Shown in pieces: positions 313-9,681 of a DNA stretch of 64,000 nucleotides. Positions within the stretch are counted from its first letter, which is position 1, and each line of letters begins with the position of its first letter. Origin of the DNA: Leuconostoc litchii (GTDB lineage: Bacteria; Bacillota; Bacilli; Lactobacillales; Lactobacillaceae). Location of the stretch: contig NZ_SDGY01000001.1 of NCBI RefSeq assembly GCF_008107645.1, positions 540 to 64,539 of the forward strand. The letters run 5' to 3'. The notes beneath the pieces are model-generated. The model was given only the letters and a program-made list of their open reading frames with translations, did no database searches and had not been told where the DNA came from. A program made the translations under genes and the position numbers.

Positions 313-1410
313 TTACAAGTCTGGATTTTGACGAAAAAAATTAGGTGTATAGCCAGTTATTTCTTTAAAAGTTTTGACAAAATAACTAGTAGTAGAAAAT
401 GATAGCAAAGTAGAAATTTCAAGTAAGGATAGATTTGAAGTAATGAGTAATTCTTTGGCGATATCTATTTTCGAATATCTAATAAATTTTGTAATAGTTG
501 TACCGTATTCTTTTTTAAAAGCTGGGTTTAATGCTTTTTTTGATGCGTTAAGTTCTTTAGCAATACCATCTAACGTAATATTTTCATGAATATGTTCTTT
601 AATATATTGTTTAATTCTTTGATGAAGAGGTAAAAAATTATTAATTTTATAAATTTTCATAATTTCAAAATAATGCCAAGTGATTTTTCTAATTACTTGA
701 AAAAAATCAATAAATTGTGGTGATAATTCAATTTCTTGGACAAGATTATTATGAATTTGAAACGCTTTTTTGATGGGGTATCCCCACTGGACAATTGCAC
801 GATTTAAGACAGCTACATACGAAATTAAGGTATCTTTTTCACCACGTATAATATTGTTAGAAGCAAACCTTTCACCAATAAGCGTTATATGAGATAAGTC
901 TTCTAGTGCTTTTGTTAATGCTGTTTTATCGGAATATACGATTGCTTTGATAATGACAGTTTCTACCTTAAAAAAAAATGCGGGATCAAACGGCATATAA
1001 TTCTTTTTATCGATATGAATTTTATCAGTAAATCGAGTAATGAGTACTTCATCATTTGGTGCTGAATCATTAGTATACAGAGTATAAATTAATTGTGCAG
1101 TAACTTTTAAATTGGAAAGGGAATGGAGCATTAATAATTCATTGTTTAATGAACTATATTCATTGTAGTTAAATGAGAAACAAATAATTTTTTCAACAGT
1201 GACACGAACAGTCAAAATATGTCCTGAATTATAATTTAACGAATGATATGCATGATTAGTTAATAAATTTACGTTTTCAGTTAATAAATTAACGGCGTCC
1301 TTATCATAATCGTTCGAACAATTGTCTATGTAATTTGCCTTTTTATCTCGAATGCTTAGTAAAATAACGTCAGCATTCAAAATATTTGCTAATTTTTTAA
1401 TATTGATCAT
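313..1410 (-). CDS. AraC/XylS-family transcriptional regulator, probable regulator of the adjacent pilus locus
   Basis: The 365-residue protein has a C-terminal AraC-type double helix-turn-helix (about residues 266-365), with the family hallmarks IKEHIHENITLDGIAKEL, a second helix pair around LSLLEISTLLSFSTTSYF and the terminal FKEITGYTPNFFR signature. The N-terminal 260 residues match no sensor domain I can name; they lack membrane segments. The start is supported by a strong GGGGGA Shine-Dalgarno 5 nt upstream. The gene is transcribed divergently from the pilin operon with a 476-bp shared control region, the usual layout for a local regulator. AraC-type regulators (for example MsmR in streptococcal FCT regions) are known at pilus loci, so control of the pilins is a reasonable inference, not shown. 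Confidence 0.85.
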   Translation of the reverse strand: MINIKKLANILNADVILLSIRDKKANYIDNCSNDYDKDAVNLLTENVNLLTNHAYHSLNYNSGHILTVRVTVEKIICFSFNYNEYSSLNNELLMLHSLSNLKVTAQLIYTLYTNDSAPNDEVLITRFTDKIHIDKKNYMPFDPAFFFKVETVIIKAIVYSDKTALTKALEDLSHITLIGERFASNNIIRGEKDTLISYVAVLNRAIVQWGYPIKKAFQIHNNLVQEIELSPQFIDFFQVIRKITWHYFEIMKIYKINNFLPLHQRIKQYIKEHIHENITLDGIAKELNASKKALNPAFKKEYGTTITKFIRYSKIDIAKELLITSNLSLLEISTLLSFSTTSYFVKTFKEITGYTPNFFRQNPDL

Positions 1411-1886: not shown

Positions 1887-4571
1887 ATGAAAATTAACAT
1901 TCATAAGTTTGTTAACAGCTTATTTGTGCATTGTTTTGGTTTTTTTTTAATATTATCAACCTTAGTAGTGAATGCGTTGATCACACCTCTTACTGTAGTA
2001 TCTGCTGCGAGTGATATTACGCCTCAGTATACAAATAATGATACAGGTGTGTTTCCAACTAATTCATGGACTATTCCAAGACAAAGTAATGTAATAAATC
2101 ATCAGGGTGGAAATATTTTAAGTGGCTGGGATAAGACAAATACTTGGAATGGTGATTCAAATAATACAAGTAATTCTTATCTGAAATTTGGAACAGATAA
2201 TAACAACCCAGATTATCAAATTCGTAAATATGCTAAAGAGACATCTACACCAGGATTATATGATGTTTATTTAAATGCTAAAGGAAATGAAGTTAAAAAC
2301 ATTAAGCCGATAGATATTGTGTTAGTTGTTGATATGTCTGGTTCAATGAATGCATCGGTAAATGGTGGTAATGATCGAGTTGGGGCAGCACGGCAGGGTG
2401 TAAAGAATTTCTTGCAAACTATCAATGATGCCAGAATTGGTAAGTACGTTAATGTCGGTGTGGTTGGTTTTTCAAGTCCAGGATACATAAGTAATTCGGG
2501 AACATTGTCTGAAAATATTGATTCATCTGATAATCCAGCACATATATCAAGAATTAATAATTTGCTGTCTAAAGAGTTTAAAGGCGGAACTTTTACTCAA
2601 TTAGGTGTTCGTACAGGTCAAAACATGCTTACAAATGATAGTAATGATCATAAGAAAATGATGATTCTATTAACAGACGGTGTGCCGACGTTTTCGTATA
2701 AAGTAACTGCAGCAACAACGATTGAAGGAATGGATTATGGTACATCATTTTCTTCAAATCGAGATGAACCTGGATTTACTTCTCAATTATGGCGAGTGAG
2801 TGGAAGAAACAGAGTGCCAACCTCATATTCAGCTACAGGAAAAATTATCCGTGATACATGGCCAGCCACACTAGGGGAATCATTACTTGCCAAAAATCAA
2901 GGTACTGAATTACATGCACTTGGCATTCAGTTATCTAAGGATGTGGGTTACACAAATAATAGTAGCAACACGTATTTGAGTGATATTCAAGTCCGTGAGC
3001 ATATGCAACTATTGGCTTCTGCTGGCCTTTATCGAGATGCTAACAGTGCGTCTGATGTTGAAACCTATTTAAAAAATCAAGCAAAAGATGTTTTAAGTCA
3101 ATTTAATACAGTTAACCAAGGAACAATTTCAGATCCGTTAGGATCTCAATTCATTTATGGGGATGATACGCCGACTGTTAAGAGTGTGGGAGATAGCGTT
3201 GTTCAGAATTTACCAACAGTTACCAAATCAAACGGAAGTATCTCTGTAAGTAATATTAATCTGGGGAAAGATCAAGAAATTCAAATACATTATCAGGTGC
3301 ATTTAAACACTGAATCAGATAATTTTAAACCGGATTACTGGTATCAGATGAATGGCAAAACAACATTTACGCCGACAAAGGATAGTAACGCTGTGGAATT
3401 TGGTGTTCCTTCTGCGAAAGGACCTGGAACGGAGCTAAAGGTTATCAAACAATGGCAAGAGCTGACTGATTCATCGAAGCGACCAGATAGTATTAGTTTT
3501 GAAGTAACGCGAACTATGAACAACCAATCAAACGATTGGCGGGCAACTGGTACTTTAAGTAAATCGGATAATTGGTCTAAAACTTTCAAACAGTTGAATC
3601 GAAATAATCAATCGGTTTCGTTACCAGCTTATGATAACAAAGGTGGAACGTTCAATTATCAGGTGCTAAACGAAAGTACGGATGGTTACGTTTCAAGCAT
3701 TACTAACAAAACAAATGAGTCAACGATAACAAATACACAATATGGTTTGATTATTGATAAGTATGCAAGTAACTCGAAAAATAAACTCATTGGTGCTGAA
3801 TTTATTGTTAAATCAACGGATGGAAAGCAGTCCTATACATTAAAAGATAATCAGTTACAGCAACTGACACCAGGGGATTACACCATTCAAGAAACTAAGA
3901 GTCCATTTGGGTATCAACTTGATTCTACGGTTTATCCAATAACATTAACGCAAGATGGAAAATGGTCAAGTAGCGGTCAAGGTATTAATGTAAAATCACC
4001 AACCACGGATGGCAACGGCTATAAAGATGGTTTTTCTATTGCTACTGACAAATCAAACAATACTGATAAGAATAATGTTGTTAGATTTGTCAAAAATGAT
4101 ACTTTCAAGAAGTTTGATCTGACAGTTAATAAAGTTGACAAAACAACTGGAAATGCGTTAAAAGGTGCTAAATTCACATTAACTGACTCTGATGGCAAAA
4201 CATCAGTTTACAAAGAAACCGATCCAACGTCGACTTTCACTTTTGAAAATCTTTCATCAGGAACATATACTTTGAAAGAATCAAAAGCTCCTGATGGATA
4301 CATTGCTAGTAAAGATGTCACAATGATAATTTCTGATGATGGCAGTGTTAAGGTAACTAACAATAATGGCGATTGGAAATCAACTTTACAAAATGATGCA
4401 GGTAACAATCAGATTAGCCTAACGGTCAACAATTCAAATAAAACTGTTTTCCCATCTACAGGCGGCACTGGTATTGTGCGCTACATGTTGATAGCTGGTG
4501 CCTTTATATTAATTGCCTTGGGTGCTAGCGGTTATTATATTTTCCGAATAATGAGGGGTAACCGATCATGA
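1887..4571 (+). CDS. Pilus tip protein with von Willebrand A domain and Cna-B repeats (SpaC/RrgA-like)
   Basis: The 894-residue protein has a signal peptide ending near VSAA (residue 41). A von Willebrand factor A domain spans about residues 140-390, with the MIDAS motif DMSGS at 149-153 and the second metal-site Asp in LLTDG at 264. Cna-B/SpaA-type beta-sandwich domains follow, at about 510-615, 618-740 and 745-845, the last two with E-box motifs (QETKSPFGY, KESKAPDGY). A sorting signal FPSTG (855-859), a membrane segment and a basic tail end it. vWA domains with MIDAS are typical of tip adhesins such as RrgA, PitA and SpaC; host or matrix binding is inferred. F replaces L in the sorting motif. 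It is the first gene of the pilin operon and overlaps the next by 4 nt. Confidence 0.88.
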   Translation: MKINIHKFVNSLFVHCFGFFLILSTLVVNALITPLTVVSAASDITPQYTNNDTGVFPTNSWTIPRQSNVINHQGGNILSGWDKTNTWNGDSNNTSNSYLKFGTDNNNPDYQIRKYAKETSTPGLYDVYLNAKGNEVKNIKPIDIVLVVDMSGSMNASVNGGNDRVGAARQGVKNFLQTINDARIGKYVNVGVVGFSSPGYISNSGTLSENIDSSDNPAHISRINNLLSKEFKGGTFTQLGVRTGQNMLTNDSNDHKKMMILLTDGVPTFSYKVTAATTIEGMDYGTSFSSNRDEPGFTSQLWRVSGRNRVPTSYSATGKIIRDTWPATLGESLLAKNQGTELHALGIQLSKDVGYTNNSSNTYLSDIQVREHMQLLASAGLYRDANSASDVETYLKNQAKDVLSQFNTVNQGTISDPLGSQFIYGDDTPTVKSVGDSVVQNLPTVTKSNGSISVSNINLGKDQEIQIHYQVHLNTESDNFKPDYWYQMNGKTTFTPTKDSNAVEFGVPSAKGPGTELKVIKQWQELTDSSKRPDSISFEVTRTMNNQSNDWRATGTLSKSDNWSKTFKQLNRNNQSVSLPAYDNKGGTFNYQVLNESTDGYVSSITNKTNESTITNTQYGLIIDKYASNSKNKLIGAEFIVKSTDGKQSYTLKDNQLQQLTPGDYTIQETKSPFGYQLDSTVYPITLTQDGKWSSSGQGINVKSPTTDGNGYKDGFSIATDKSNNTDKNNVVRFVKNDTFKKFDLTVNKVDKTTGNALKGAKFTLTDSDGKTSVYKETDPTSTFTFENLSSGTYTLKESKAPDGYIASKDVTMIISDDGSVKVTNNNGDWKSTLQNDAGNNQISLTVNNSNKTVFPSTGGTGIVRYMLIAGAFILIALGASGYYIFRIMRGNRS

Positions 4572-5692
4572 TTAAAAAAATGATTGTGTTTATCATTACC
4601 TGTATTTCATTTGGGTTGCTTAGCTTTCAACAAGACAATTTAAAGGTTTTAGCCGATACTGATAACCAATTTACGATAGAATTGCATCATCAGTTGAGTG
4701 TGTATGAATCAAATCCAGTATCCAATATTCCTGGCAGCAACGTAACATTTCAATTGTATGATTTGACGGCTGATTACCAGAAGCATGAAAATGATGAAAA
4801 TTATTTTGAAGATTTAAAATCTCAAAATCAGGGTATTCAAAATTATATTCAAGACAATCATATTCGTTTGATGGATACTAAAACTACTGATGCCAATGGA
4901 CAAGCAACATTTCATGTTTCAAAAGAATATGGAAAAGCTTATCTTATTGTGCAACAAAAAAGTAGCCAACTTGAAAGTGATGGTTTGTCTTATGAGCAGG
5001 TTAGTGATCCAGTTGCATTTTCGCTAAGCAATCAAGATATGGATAAAAACAAGCTTGAAATTGAGACCAAATCTGCTATTGTGACACGCATACCATATTT
5101 TTTTAAATATGGAAAAACGCTTGATCATAAAGAATTACCATTAGCAGGTGTCAAATTTGTGTTGTATAAAACAGTTGACAACCAAAAAAAATACCTGACT
5201 GAAGACAATAGTTGGAAAACCACTGATGATCCACTACATGAGAAAGAAGTAAAAAAAGTCGTATCTGACGATGCCGGTTTAGTTGCTTTGAATAATAGTA
5301 AGCTACCAGCGGGTCAATATTATTTTCAAGAGGTTCAAACATTAAAAAACTTTGAAATATCTTCTCAGGCACAACACATTAGTGTTAATATTCCAGCAGT
5401 CACTAGCTTAGCTAATGTATCGCCAATTACTGTTAATGGCGAGCCGTTGTCTAAAATAGCTGCGGGTGTGATACCCAATGACGTGTATCAAAATGCAAGT
5501 CCGAGAGTTTTGAATTACCAACAGAAGCAGCCCACTAAGGAACCACCATTTAGCTTGCCATTCTTACCCGAAACAGGAATAGCAATTGGTTCAATTTCTT
5601 TAGTCGGTTTGTTGATTATTTTATTGGTAATATTGATAAAAATTTATAAGAAAAAATTACAATTAAAAAGGAGTTTTAAAAATGAAAAGTAA
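4568..5692 (+). CDS. Minor/basal pilin with LPETG signal and proline-rich tail
   Basis: The 374-residue protein has a signal peptide cleaved near VLA-DT (about residue 30), two Cna-B/SpaA-like regions (about 35-165 and 170-280) and a Pro/Gln-rich linker. A canonical LPETG (333-337), a transmembrane helix and a Lys/Arg tail follow. A small pilin with a proline-rich tail before the sorting signal is the usual description of the basal pilin, which the housekeeping sortase attaches to peptidoglycan. That role is inferred from family knowledge. The start overlaps the tip gene by 4 nt, so translation is probably coupled. Confidence 0.82.
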   Translation: MIKKMIVFIITCISFGLLSFQQDNLKVLADTDNQFTIELHHQLSVYESNPVSNIPGSNVTFQLYDLTADYQKHENDENYFEDLKSQNQGIQNYIQDNHIRLMDTKTTDANGQATFHVSKEYGKAYLIVQQKSSQLESDGLSYEQVSDPVAFSLSNQDMDKNKLEIETKSAIVTRIPYFFKYGKTLDHKELPLAGVKFVLYKTVDNQKKYLTEDNSWKTTDDPLHEKEVKKVVSDDAGLVALNNSKLPAGQYYFQEVQTLKNFEISSQAQHISVNIPAVTSLANVSPITVNGEPLSKIAAGVIPNDVYQNASPRVLNYQQKQPTKEPPFSLPFLPETGIAIGSISLVGLLIILLVILIKIYKKKLQLKRSFKNEK

Positions 5693-7208
5693 GTCATGGT
5701 CACAAATGGCTAATGCAATTTTACTCGTACTTCCTCTTTTAGTATCAGCTTTGTTCGGTGTTACTAATGTATCTGCGGACACAACAGATAGTGTTAATGT
5801 TACATTGCATAAAAGGGTCTTTGATGAAGGTAAAGTACCGGATAATAAGACCAATACAGGTGAAGTAGATAATAATTTTGGTGGAACGCCATTAGCAGGT
5901 GTTACTTTTACAGCTTATGATGTAACTGATCATTATTTGAACTTACGTTCAAATGGGGACACTGCTGAAAAAGCATCCCAAGAGGTTCAATCAGATGCTA
6001 CTAATGCAGCACCAAGTTACGCCACAAAAGTTGCAGAAGGTGTAACAGCTGGAGCCGATGGCACAGTAACTTTTTCAAATTTGAAGTCTAAGGACGGAGA
6101 TAAAGACAAGGTTTACTTGTTTGTTGAAACAAATTCACCAACAAATGTTACACAAAAAGCTGCTCCAATTGTGTTAGCTTTACCCGTTTATAAGTCAGGC
6201 TCAGACTCAGAAATTAATTCTGATGTTCATGTTTATCCCAAGAACGAACAAGCTGATGCTATTACAAAAGATTTAAGTGACGAAAGTAAAAAAGATTTGA
6301 TTGTGACATTGCCTGATGGATCAAAGGTTTATAATGCCACTTATGGTCAAAAATTTGGTTATCAATTGCAAATAGCAGTACCATGGAACATTGCGGATAA
6401 AGATACATTTAATGTAGTTGATACACCTAACTTAGGGATTGATGATGATGCTACTACAGTAAAGGTTGCAGGATTAACTGAAGGAACTGATTATACAGTT
6501 TCAGCAACTGATGCAACTGACAAAAATGGTAAAGGTTTTAAAATAACGTTTAATCCAACGGCAGCTGCTGTTAAGGCTGCTGCCGGTAAAAAGTTAACAG
6601 TTACTTATAATGCTACCTTGACTAATGCTGCTGTTCCTGACAAAGCATTGAACAACACGGCTACGTTAAATATTGGTAATGGAACAGATGTTACTACTAC
6701 ACCGGCTCAAGGACCTGAAATTTACACTGGTGGTGTGAATTTCGTTAAGCAAGACAAGCAAAGTGCTGCAAAGCTTGCTGGTGCAGAGTTCCAGTTGGTT
6801 AAGTTAAATGCTAATGGTGACAAAGTAGCTTACGCAACGCAAGCAGCTGATGGTTCATATACATGGGCTGCAAATAATAACTCAGCGACAACATATACAT
6901 CAAATGATCAAGGATCAGTTGAATTAAAAGGTCTTGAATATTCAAACAAGTTGGCTGATGGTCAAAGCTATGCACTTGTTGAAACAAAGTCTCCAGCTGG
7001 TTATGCGCTTTTGACAGCTCCTGTTAAGTTTACAGTTACTAAAGGAAGCTATGCTGACAATCAAACAATCACTGTGACAAACATTAAGAAGGGTATCTTA
7101 CCATCAACTGGTGGTTCTGGTATCTACTTGTTCTTGATTGCAGGTGCACTTTTGATGAGTGGCGCATATGTTTGGAATAAGCGTAATAAAAAGAACCAAA
7201 ATATTTAA
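5682..7208 (+). CDS. Major backbone pilin (SpaA family)
   Basis: The 508-residue protein has a signal peptide ending at VSA-DT (about residue 34). The pilin motif VYPK has its Lys at residue 187; this is the nucleophile that sortase C joins to the Thr of the next subunit. Cna-B-type domains follow, and the E-box VETKSPAGY has its Glu at 434. The end is an LPSTG signal (473-477), a membrane helix and a basic tail. Having pilin motif, E-box and sorting signal together identifies the polymer-forming subunit. The start lies inside the preceding gene (11-nt overlap) with a strong AAAAAGGAG 8 nt upstream, consistent with high translation. A terminator follows directly, which would favour pilin over sortase expression. 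Confidence 0.9.
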   Translation: MKSKSWSQMANAILLVLPLLVSALFGVTNVSADTTDSVNVTLHKRVFDEGKVPDNKTNTGEVDNNFGGTPLAGVTFTAYDVTDHYLNLRSNGDTAEKASQEVQSDATNAAPSYATKVAEGVTAGADGTVTFSNLKSKDGDKDKVYLFVETNSPTNVTQKAAPIVLALPVYKSGSDSEINSDVHVYPKNEQADAITKDLSDESKKDLIVTLPDGSKVYNATYGQKFGYQLQIAVPWNIADKDTFNVVDTPNLGIDDDATTVKVAGLTEGTDYTVSATDATDKNGKGFKITFNPTAAAVKAAAGKKLTVTYNATLTNAAVPDKALNNTATLNIGNGTDVTTTPAQGPEIYTGGVNFVKQDKQSAAKLAGAEFQLVKLNANGDKVAYATQAADGSYTWAANNNSATTYTSNDQGSVELKGLEYSNKLADGQSYALVETKSPAGYALLTAPVKFTVTKGSYADNQTITVTNIKKGILPSTGGSGIYLFLIAGALLMSGAYVWNKRNKKNQNI

Positions 7209-7223
7209 TCATATTTGAAAACT

Positions 7224-7259
7224 AAAGTGCAAACCATGTTCGTGGTAAGCACTTTTTTT
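7224..7259 (+). terminator. Terminator between pilins and sortases
   Basis: AAAGTGC pairs with GCACTTT, with an inner ACCA/TGGT helix and a seven-T run. It separates pilin from sortase transcription. Confidence 0.8.
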
Positions 7260-7346: not shown

Positions 7347-8534
7347 ATGGCAGAACAAAAACAAAATAACGCTAATATTTTTCTGAAACTGTTCATTGCA
7401 TTAATGTTTTTCATTGGCTTTTTGGTGTTCATGTATCCTTTTATTGCTAATGGCGTGAATAACTATGTGGCCCAAAAAGAATTAAATGCTGTGAATCAAC
7501 TAAATCAAAGCAATCAGAAAGCCAGTGCCAAGAAACTCGAAAAATTAATCAAAAAAAACAATCAAAAGTCAAAAGAAAATCAACAACTTGGTATATCACC
7601 TGTCAAGAATATCTTGGGGCAAACGTTGGAAAATGTACCCAAGGAGAGTAGGGAGTACTATCAAAAGCACTCGTTAGGCAGTATATTCATTCCTAAAATA
7701 TCTCTGAGTTTACCAGTGTTTGATACAACGACTGACAGCCTTTTGTATAAAGGAATTACATTATTGCCTGGCAGTTCTTATCCTGTTGGCGGCAAAAGTA
7801 CGCATACCGTTTTGATGGGGCACAGTGGTTTGCCTAATCAAGAATTATTTACTCATCTGCACGAATTAAAAAAAGGCGATAAGTTTTTTTTGAAAGTGTA
7901 TGGGAAACGTTTAGCTTATCAAGTTATTCGAATCAAAGTCGTTTTACCAACAGATCTAAGTGATATCACAATACAAAATAACCAAGATTTGGCCACTTTG
8001 GTCACATGTACACCCTATATGGTAAACACACATCGATTGTTAGTTACTGGGAAAAGGGTGCCTTTGGATAAGGGTTCATTTGATAAACAAGAAAAAAAGG
8101 CAGTATCGTATCAAGGAAAATATTTACTTTGTTTGACGGCACTGCTTCTTATTTTTATGGCTTTAATTTTTTATATCATCAAACGTGAGCTTATTGAACT
8201 ATTGTCACATAAAAGAAATTATCAGTTATCATTTTTTGTTTATAATAATGGACGTCTCATTTCTGGTTATAAATTCACTGTAGTAGATTATTTTGGTAAA
8301 AGAATATTAAATGACCAAGGTGAGTTATGTGAGTCTACGAGTGACTCAAGAGGCTATGTATCATTTGGTGAAATTAGTGGTGGCAAGTATAAAATAATTC
8401 CGATGAATTCAAACATGAATATCAAACCTTTTAAAGCAACAGTTAAACATTTAAAAGATAAAAAATTCTATATCAGAAAAGTAGTTAAAAATGGTTACCA
8501 AATTGACACAGAAGGTGATGAAACAAATGACTAA
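7347..8534 (+). CDS. Class C (pilin-polymerising) sortase 1 with extra C-terminal cytoplasmic domain
   Basis: The 395-residue protein has an N-terminal membrane helix (about 12-34), a class C sortase domain with His159 (MGHSG), Cys221 in TLVTC and Arg230 (THRLL), and a second membrane helix (about 257-279). The last 105 residues are unusual: class C sortases normally end soon after the second helix. Here a beta-rich segment (SDSRGYVSFGEISGGKYKI) resembles a Cna-B/SpaA domain and, by topology, should lie in the cytoplasm. The region where the autoinhibitory lid normally has DPF/DPW reads GISPVKN, so the lid Asp is missing. The second sortase overlaps the end of this gene. It is expected to link Thr of the LPSTG motif to the pilin-motif Lys. 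Confidence 0.9.
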   Translation: MAEQKQNNANIFLKLFIALMFFIGFLVFMYPFIANGVNNYVAQKELNAVNQLNQSNQKASAKKLEKLIKKNNQKSKENQQLGISPVKNILGQTLENVPKESREYYQKHSLGSIFIPKISLSLPVFDTTTDSLLYKGITLLPGSSYPVGGKSTHTVLMGHSGLPNQELFTHLHELKKGDKFFLKVYGKRLAYQVIRIKVVLPTDLSDITIQNNQDLATLVTCTPYMVNTHRLLVTGKRVPLDKGSFDKQEKKAVSYQGKYLLCLTALLLIFMALIFYIIKRELIELLSHKRNYQLSFFVYNNGRLISGYKFTVVDYFGKRILNDQGELCESTSDSRGYVSFGEISGGKYKIIPMNSNMNIKPFKATVKHLKDKKFYIRKVVKNGYQIDTEGDETND

Positions 8535-9681
8535 GCGAACCAGTAAAAAAAAGAATAAGCAAAGTATATTTTTAAATATTATTTTTCTTATAGGATTTTT
8601 AGTAGCATTGTATCCTTTTTACGTTGGTGCGTTGAATCACTTCATTGACCAGCAACGAATTAAAACCATTCAAAAAGAAACTACTAAAGATATATCAGCA
8701 AAAGAAGCACGTATGCAAGAGGAAAATGCACAGTTAAGGAAAGAAGGTATTCAACTTGGGAGCGACCCATTTTCTGGTTCCACTGACAAAGAAAATGGGG
8801 TATTGAAGGAGCATTTAATTGGTACAATTAGTATTTCTAAAATTAACGTGCATATTCCGCTTTTTGATACGACCAATGAAGAAACACTTAACTATGGTGC
8901 AACCGTCTTACAAGGAACATCTTTTCCTCTGGGTGGGAAAGGCACGCATAGTGTTATTTCCGCGCACCGTGGCTTGGCTTCACGAATGTTATTTACAAAC
9001 TTAAATCATGTTAAGAAAAATGATACTTTTGTATTAACGGTATTTCATAAAAAATTAGCCTATAAAGTTTTTAAAATTGAAGTTGTCAAACCTGAAGATT
9101 ACCAAGGGCTGCAAGTTGAACCTGATAAAGACTTGGTAACGCTAATAACCTGCACACCTTATATGGTCAATTCACATCGTTTGTTGGTGACAGGATATCG
9201 AGTTCCTTATAATAAAAATATGGCAAAAAATATTGAAAACGCTGATAAGTTCAATAATATTAAGCAAGCTCTTACTATTATTGGTATTATTTTATTAATC
9301 ATATTGCAATTTTTCTTTTTGTATAAACGCATCATACGTATCAAGTTAGCCAAAAAAAAGTTTGATTTATCATTTTATCGCTTAGATTCAGATGGTAATC
9401 CTGTTCCATCTGTCGCCTTTCAATTGTTTTCTAAGAACAAAAAAGTTGCTTTAAAAAGAGATAGAGAACTATTAATTCGTCGTTCGAATGATGAAGGGCT
9501 TGTTACATTTGATGCTATTCCAGGTAGACTCTACTATGTTAAAGAAGCTACAACTAACAAAAATAACGGGGTTATTGCTGGCGTAAAAAAGCTAAAAGAT
9601 AAGAATATGACCTTTTACCCAACTAAAAAGTCAAAACCTTTTTTCCATTCGGATAACAATAAACTGTGGATTATTAGATAG
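8527..9681 (+). CDS. Class C sortase 2 with extra C-terminal cytoplasmic domain
   Basis: The 384-residue protein is a paralogue of the preceding sortase. It has an N-terminal membrane helix, a lid segment with DPF, His147 (SAHRG), Cys209 in TLITC, Arg218 (SHRLL) and a second membrane helix (about 245-267). A C-terminal domain of about 110 residues has the Cna-B-like signature SNDEGLVTFDAIPG. Both paralogues share a VKxLKDK motif near the end of this extra domain. The start chosen is the ATG 11 nt after GAAGG; two upstream in-frame ATGs (8491, 8518) have no usable ribosome-binding site. It overlaps sortase 1 by 8 nt, so the pair is co-translated. Two polymerising sortases for one backbone pilin suggests divided roles, which is inference. 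Confidence 0.88.
   Translation: MTKRTSKKKNKQSIFLNIIFLIGFLVALYPFYVGALNHFIDQQRIKTIQKETTKDISAKEARMQEENAQLRKEGIQLGSDPFSGSTDKENGVLKEHLIGTISISKINVHIPLFDTTNEETLNYGATVLQGTSFPLGGKGTHSVISAHRGLASRMLFTNLNHVKKNDTFVLTVFHKKLAYKVFKIEVVKPEDYQGLQVEPDKDLVTLITCTPYMVNSHRLLVTGYRVPYNKNMAKNIENADKFNNIKQALTIIGIILLIILQFFFLYKRIIRIKLAKKKFDLSFYRLDSDGNPVPSVAFQLFSKNKKVALKRDRELLIRRSNDEGLVTFDAIPGRLYYVKEATTNKNNGVIAGVKKLKDKNMTFYPTKKSKPFFHSDNNKLWIIR

Follow-up and report, generated by a model that had tools for sequence, protein, structure and literature searches.

What a class C sortase might do with an additional domain placed after its second membrane helix is the question raised by a pilus operon of Leuconostoc litchii. To our knowledge, how pilus sortases select and order their subunits is unsettled. 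The operon lies within a window of 64,000 nucleotides (the whole stretch of DNA that was analysed) on a 1.24-Mb contig, and the genes of its tip, minor and backbone pilins succeed each other in that order directly upstream of two sortase genes (Table 1). The minor pilin is probably the basal one, and the SpaA domain of the tip pilin (about positions 4107-4295) is matched by a profile of the sortase extensions discussed here (E 4.8e-6). The hairpin that separates the backbone pilin from the sortases was missed by a consensus terminator scan, which returned 0 terminators; it could attenuate transcription and so leave the pilins more numerous than the sortases.

Table 1 Features of the pilus locus, in positions of the window
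Feature	Positions	Strand	Basis or remark
AraC-type regulator, divergent	313..1410	-	HTH_18; TIGR04094 107 bits, under its cut-off of 200
Tip pilin, VWA + GBS104-like + SpaA domains	1887..4571	+	Pfam domain matches
Minor pilin, LPETG	4568..5692	+	GramPos_pilinD1, SpaA
Backbone (major) pilin, SpaH/EbpB family, LPSTG	5682..7208	+	NF033902 272.6 bits
Codons of backbone-pilin inner tail KRNKKNQNI (proposed partner of the extension)	7179..7205	+	fits -[EDNQ][IVAG], not the stricter -[ED][IVA]
Terminator-like hairpin, then T run, between backbone-pilin and sortase genes	7224..7255	+	-13.3 kcal/mol, z -3.67
Class C sortase 1, 395 aa	7347..8534	+	NF033745 246 bits
Second membrane helix region of sortase 1, residues 252-287	8100..8207	+	hydropathy
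CnaB-like C-terminal extension of sortase 1, 119 aa as modelled	8175..8531	+	
Class C sortase 2, 396 aa	8491..9681	+	NF033745 239 bits
Second membrane helix region of sortase 2, residues 253-287	9247..9351	+	hydropathy
CnaB-like C-terminal extension of sortase 2, 120 aa as modelled	9319..9678	+	

The original prediction recognised two class C sortases at this locus, and both proteins do score above the curated cut-off of NF033745 (160 bits; 246 for sortase 1 and 239 for sortase 2). The TCTP motif with the catalytic cysteine begins at residue 220 in both, and the residues predicted to be catalytic (H159, C221 and R230 in sortase 1 numbering) are invariant in 21/21 aligned sequences. According to hydropathy, the hydrophobic stretches are found at residues 6-39 and 252-287 of sortase 1 and at 21-52 and 253-287 of sortase 2, so that the first stretch, the catalytic domain and the second stretch (TM2) precede the extension; a C-terminal membrane helix is described as a characteristic feature of class C sortases (PMC3493515). 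Sortase 2 could start at the first ATG of its ORF or 12 codons downstream, the latter being implied by the numbering (275-384) originally given to its extension. The lid DPX motif reads DPF in sortase 2; sortase 1 and its nearest aligned relatives have SPV (the form in sortase 1) or SPI in place of this usual lid, and self-inhibition may be altered in their group.

The long stretch announced after the second helix measures 117 residues in sortase 1 and 118 in sortase 2, counted from the TM2 window, and the strand-turn motifs and the VKxLKDK motif pointed out in it are present in both ORFs. The VKxLKDK patch falls in a conserved basic stretch where too few pilin domains align for a comparison. 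The two extensions share 24% identity with each other, and the Cna-B/SpaA-like fold attributed to them is supported by structure prediction, in which both model as a CnaB beta-sandwich matching CnaB domains. The profile search proposed to check this fold gave a weaker answer: the full proteins remain under the gathering score of PF17802 (17.5 bits, E 0.0048, for sortase 1 and 20.7 bits, E 0.00047, for sortase 2, against 23.1), the second extension taken alone slightly exceeds it (23.3 bits), and SpaA matches at E up to 0.1 are found in 13/21 family members. The extension is conserved across genera, profile position Y72 being kept in 149/149 extensions and G60 in 146/149. In the one species pair compared, the dN/dS of the two extensions (0.33 and 0.17) indicates purifying selection, though they evolve faster than the catalytic parts (0.013 and 0.054). 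Since conservation across genera, purifying selection and the CnaB models of both extensions concur, the extension represents more than a chance appendage.

The extensions nevertheless differ from the pilin domains that they resemble. In the alignment columns that we take, from general knowledge of the CnaB family, to be those of the isopeptide lysine and the E-box glutamate, the lysine is found in 0/140 extensions versus 53/55 aligned pilin domains, the glutamate in 17/146 versus 69/71, and both together in 0/137 versus 51/53, the pilin domains being those that the extension profile picks out in frames of 200 codons or more. The alignment therefore suggests that the extension lacks the combination of a first-strand lysine and an E-box glutamate that defines isopeptide-forming CnaB domains. 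Its charge also differs: the extensions have a net charge of +10.7 per 100 residues (n=151; mean net charge of the whole extension, +13.9) versus -1.6 in pilin-type SpaA domains (n=57), a set whose contrast with the extensions would be lessened by the few sortase fragments that it may include; within the 70-residue SpaA-like core the value is only +4.1 per 100 residues (n=146). A basic residue occupies model position 39 in 107/149 extensions versus 8/64 pilin domains, position 42 in 128/149 versus 24/69 and position 47 in 95/136 versus 4/30. As far as models and alignments can tell, the extension is a pilin-domain fold that has lost its isopeptide-forming residues and turned basic.

The distribution of this architecture was studied in a collection of 389 complete sortase ORFs, 286 of them distinct, from which frames cut by the end of a locus, lacking TCTP or scoring below 100 bits had been excluded. 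The extension is present in 151 and absent from 135 of them, a proportion that is not a population rate, as the loci were picked partly for long frames. The short ending after the second helix, originally given as normal for class C sortases, therefore holds for only a part of the family; in 124/135 of the sequences without the extension the tail has at most 40 residues, with a median of 13 residues and a mean net charge of +5.2. Other kinds of tail were also observed after TM2: an unrelated, low-complexity and very basic tail in class C sortases of another lineage (89 residues, net +29; L299 7871 and L300 7858), low-complexity tails of 57-65 residues (net 0 to -4) in some Lactobacillaceae (L036, L037, L048 and L049) and, beside an extended sortase, a basic extension of 109 residues unmatched by the extension profile (L292 8705), which is possibly a diverged form.

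The genome surveys are samples in which the best 11-12 first-look candidates of each genome were scored. A class C sortase above the cut-off is encoded in 51/201 Lactobacillaceae genomes, and at least 17 of these 51 carry the extension, as counted from the fetched loci. At the level of the order, the extension profile matches 45/395 genomes with E <= 1e-10. The sites listed at this threshold fall in open frames 381-458 codons long, apart from two shorter frames of 196 and 119 codons; the weaker matches, among those listed, are mostly long frames resembling pilins. In a class sample, 4/348 genomes matched at 1e-8; three of these belong to the order, while the fourth match sits in a frame too long for a sortase gene (1801 codons), and in a phylum sample of 398 genomes the sole match at 1e-9 was the window's own genome. 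The carriers include Leuconostoc, Oenococcus, Enterococcus, Vagococcus, Lactococcus and Ligilactobacillus among the best 80 of 389 loci, a set biased toward relatives of the query. The nearest relatives of sortase 2 in a plasmid collection, about 66% identical, come from Lactococcus, Leuconostoc carnosum and Latilactobacillus, and the Leuconostoc plasmid operon is flanked by transposase genes. Within the family sample of 201, a class C sortase match is found in 2/8 genomes of the window's genus, a pattern in keeping with acquisition by transfer. In an Enterococcus faecium plasmid (L308 5660-7662), an IS66 element separates the backbone pilin from the paired sortase genes, and another extended pair (L076 6962-9324) has no directly adjoining LPXTG pilin gene according to a simple anchor search. 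Three plasmid records annotate the combined protein merely as a "class C sortase", and a literature search of open-licence papers found no title or abstract opening that describes the extension, although a description may exist elsewhere. The enzyme family and the fold are already known, and their combination is widespread.

The original prediction placed the extension in the cytoplasm, and we infer the same because two predicted helices flank a domain that must act outside. TM2 has a mean hydropathy of 2.55 (minimum 1.67) over the 151 extended sortases, and no 19-residue stretch past it exceeds a mean of 1.6 in any of them. The flanking charges do not reinforce this orientation: lysines plus arginines are practically equal in number over the 20 residues that precede and the 20 that follow TM2 (4.65 after and 4.77 before; more after in 50/151, with 23 ties) and net charge differs only slightly (+3.7 after, +2.0 before). 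This equality would suit a TM2 that does not fully span the membrane, or a topology otherwise reversed, with the domain outside near the assembling pilus; yet the hydropathy of TM2 and the basic character of the extension, which the pilin SpaA domains outside do not share, make such an arrangement improbable. A cytoplasmic domain had been deemed to lie on the wrong side for exported pilins. That objection overlooks that each LPXTG pilin precursor keeps its C-terminal tail in the cytoplasm until cleavage, and it is this tail that correlates with the extension.

The backbone was taken to be the nearest upstream LPXTG protein, which was found for 106 extended and 108 short sortases; these gave 166 distinct backbones, 159 of them no more than 400 bases from the sortase gene, and 134 after clustering at 85% identity. 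The strict tail -[ED][IVA] ends the backbone in 38/63 extended operons versus 0/71 short ones, and the wider form -[EDNQ][IVAG] in 53/63 versus 11/71, so that the wider tail is absent from 10/63 extended operons and present in 11/71 short ones. The backbone of the window, ending in NQNI, has the wider form only. Among the other LPXTG proteins of extended operons, the wider tail is found in 3/48 of the next ones upstream and in 9/41 of those after, so in these sequences the motif is a feature of the backbone that minor pilins mostly lack. The motif was chosen after seeing the data; in representatives fetched after the idea, the strict form is present in 6/13 extended versus 0/31 short operons and the wider one in 8/13 versus 2/31. 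Four sortases with shorter extensions (83-93 residues after TM2; L083-L086) accompany backbones whose tails lack the motif (RRAN, RRAF, RRAA), which fits a joint loss.

Shared ancestry was taken into account with a sortase tree built without the extension columns, on which the extension label changes 11 times, 6 of these changes being forced by well supported branches. An independent-pairs test on the 6 supported pairs was not significant (median p = 0.375 for the wider motif and 0.25 for the strict one); on average, 3.5 pairs varied the same way, 0.5 the opposite way and 2.0 showed no difference for the wider motif, versus 2.6, 0.0 and 3.4 for the strict one. In a Pagel-type test on the same tree, LR reached 29.5 (wider) and 19.4 (strict); none of the 95 independence simulations that finished for the wider motif attained 29.5, their maximum being 11.8. 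The highest values for single traits were those of residue -2 (EDNQ; LR 31.8) and of a basic residue at -8 (30.0), position -7 giving 9.9. Among the controls, the residue before LPXTG reached 25.2, the glycine after it 17.7 and five further sorting-signal traits 2.0-9.2; as the first of these exceeds the strict motif, shared ancestry may account for part of the link. On the backbone tree, the tail motif (LR 39.1 and 34.2) stands above seven extracellular or membrane controls (9.7-23.6). The last residue alone (IVA) is uncorrelated with the extension (51/63 extended versus 34/71 short; LR 7.2 on the sortase tree and 6.5 on the backbone tree), so an aliphatic end is unsupported by itself. In these comparisons, the link with the tail passes through the next-to-last residue; among the traits tried this link is the strongest, though not the sole one.

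The explanation that we favor, with a probability of roughly 0.38, is that the extension is a docking module that reads the backbone tail. Each sortase would carry a cytosolic CnaB docking domain. As long as the backbone precursor remains membrane-bound, its short C-terminal tail protrudes into the cytoplasm, and the extension would hold that tail, its basic surface reading above all the acidic or amide next-to-last residue, as well as the free C-terminus. Docking would keep the polymerase beside its own backbone subunit and away from minor pilins and SrtA substrates, and cleavage at LPXTG would release the tail peptide. The binding of the tail is suggested by covariation, and a benefit for the choice of substrate would be its consequence.

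A somewhat less probable reading, tentative in its turn, is one of retention: the extension, folded and basic, would hold the sortase at a focal site of the membrane, through anionic lipid or the secretion site, and would read no tail. It would then correspond to the short basic tail that ordinary class C sortases have, enlarged from a mean net charge of +5.2 to +13.9, and the unrelated long basic tails found elsewhere among class C sortases (those with net +29) would be congruent with it. Nevertheless, retention explains neither the need for a folded domain nor the link with the backbone tail, and the long tails that are neutral or slightly acidic speak against it. Whether it reads tails or localises the enzyme, the domain would act at the inner face of the assembly site, an option already contained in the original prediction.

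Binding to another extension or to a cytosolic factor, by which paired sortases or a sortase-secretion complex would assemble together, seems rather unlikely. Adjoining extended sortases, both matched by the profile, occur in the operon of the window and on an Enterococcus faecalis plasmid, and pairs of extended length are annotated, with no profile score, on Leuconostoc carnosum pKLC3 and an E. faecium plasmid; yet a lone extended sortase is common (e.g. L079, L080, L081) and some operons combine an extended with a short one (L077, L078). According to the original idea, the extension would contact pre-pilins, or their SpaA domains, inside the cell prior to their secretion; the fold common to both partners is in favor of this, but Sec-exported proteins are normally unfolded before export, so a folded SpaA partner would be unexpected inside the cell and we hold this engagement to be improbable. 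Hardly more can be said for a functionless leftover of a fusion carried along by the operon, the least probable of these readings: the faster evolution of the extensions would agree with it, but purifying selection persists in them, Y72 is invariant and G60 nearly so, and the domain has been kept in several families.

Comparison with known systems indicates that the extension is compatible with normal piliation. The SrtC of Ligilactobacillus ruminis DSM 20403 (L192, L079) is extended and its backbone ends in RRNRRENI, as does LrpA of strain ATCC 25644 (PMC5536039), whose lrpCBA operon, with a single srtC, is reported to produce pili in L. ruminis and in Lactococcus lactis, sortase identity among L. 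ruminis strains being 96.9-100% (PMC4692528). The resemblance to the window thus concerns the extension and the tail RRENI of DSM 20403, the piliation was shown for ATCC 25644, and one extended sortase replaces the pair. An extended class C sortase is probably responsible for these normal pili. The SrtC/YhhA of L. lactis IL1403, required for polymerisation, is described as having 432 residues, a catalytic signature at 221-225 and N- and C-terminal membrane domains (PMC3516528), figures that imply a long C-terminal part. The class C sortases of NF033745, such as SrtC1 and SrtC2 of GBS PI-1 (PMC3493515) and the Ebp SrtC (PDB 24rr), share with those of the window the catalytic domain with its His, Cys and Arg, the N- and C-terminal membrane helices and the pilus operon; where those without the extension have a median of 13 residues after TM2, the window's two sortases have a folded CnaB domain of about 118. 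The pilin CnaB/SpaA domains (PF17802), e.g. those of BcpA and CnaB2 of FbaB, share with the extensions the beta-sandwich and a core of the SDxxGxVxFxxLPGGxYxL type; unlike them, the extensions are basic, lack the isopeptide lysine, rarely have the E-box glutamate and follow a sortase membrane helix. CnaB2 of FbaB is the source of SpyCatcher. Loci of like organization, with tip, minor and backbone pilins followed by two class C sortases of extended length, are found on Enterococcus and Leuconostoc plasmids, whereas the window's copy is on the 1.24-Mb contig. The enterococcal Bee locus is presumably one of these paired-sortase pilus loci, although its name is absent from the plasmid records examined.

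Two GBS sortase C enzymes are reported to have cleaved every LPXTG-like peptide tested (PMC3493515). The docking module that we favor leads to a broader proposal, slightly less probable than the module itself: a cytosolic "tail code", in which a CnaB domain unable to form its crosslink would recognise the C-terminal residues of the backbone, so that the substrate of polymerisation would be partly chosen inside the cell, beyond the outer LPXTG. If this holds true, an inner domain tracking the backbone tail would provide a second, testable layer of selection, and a CnaB domain would be used without its crosslink and inside the cell.
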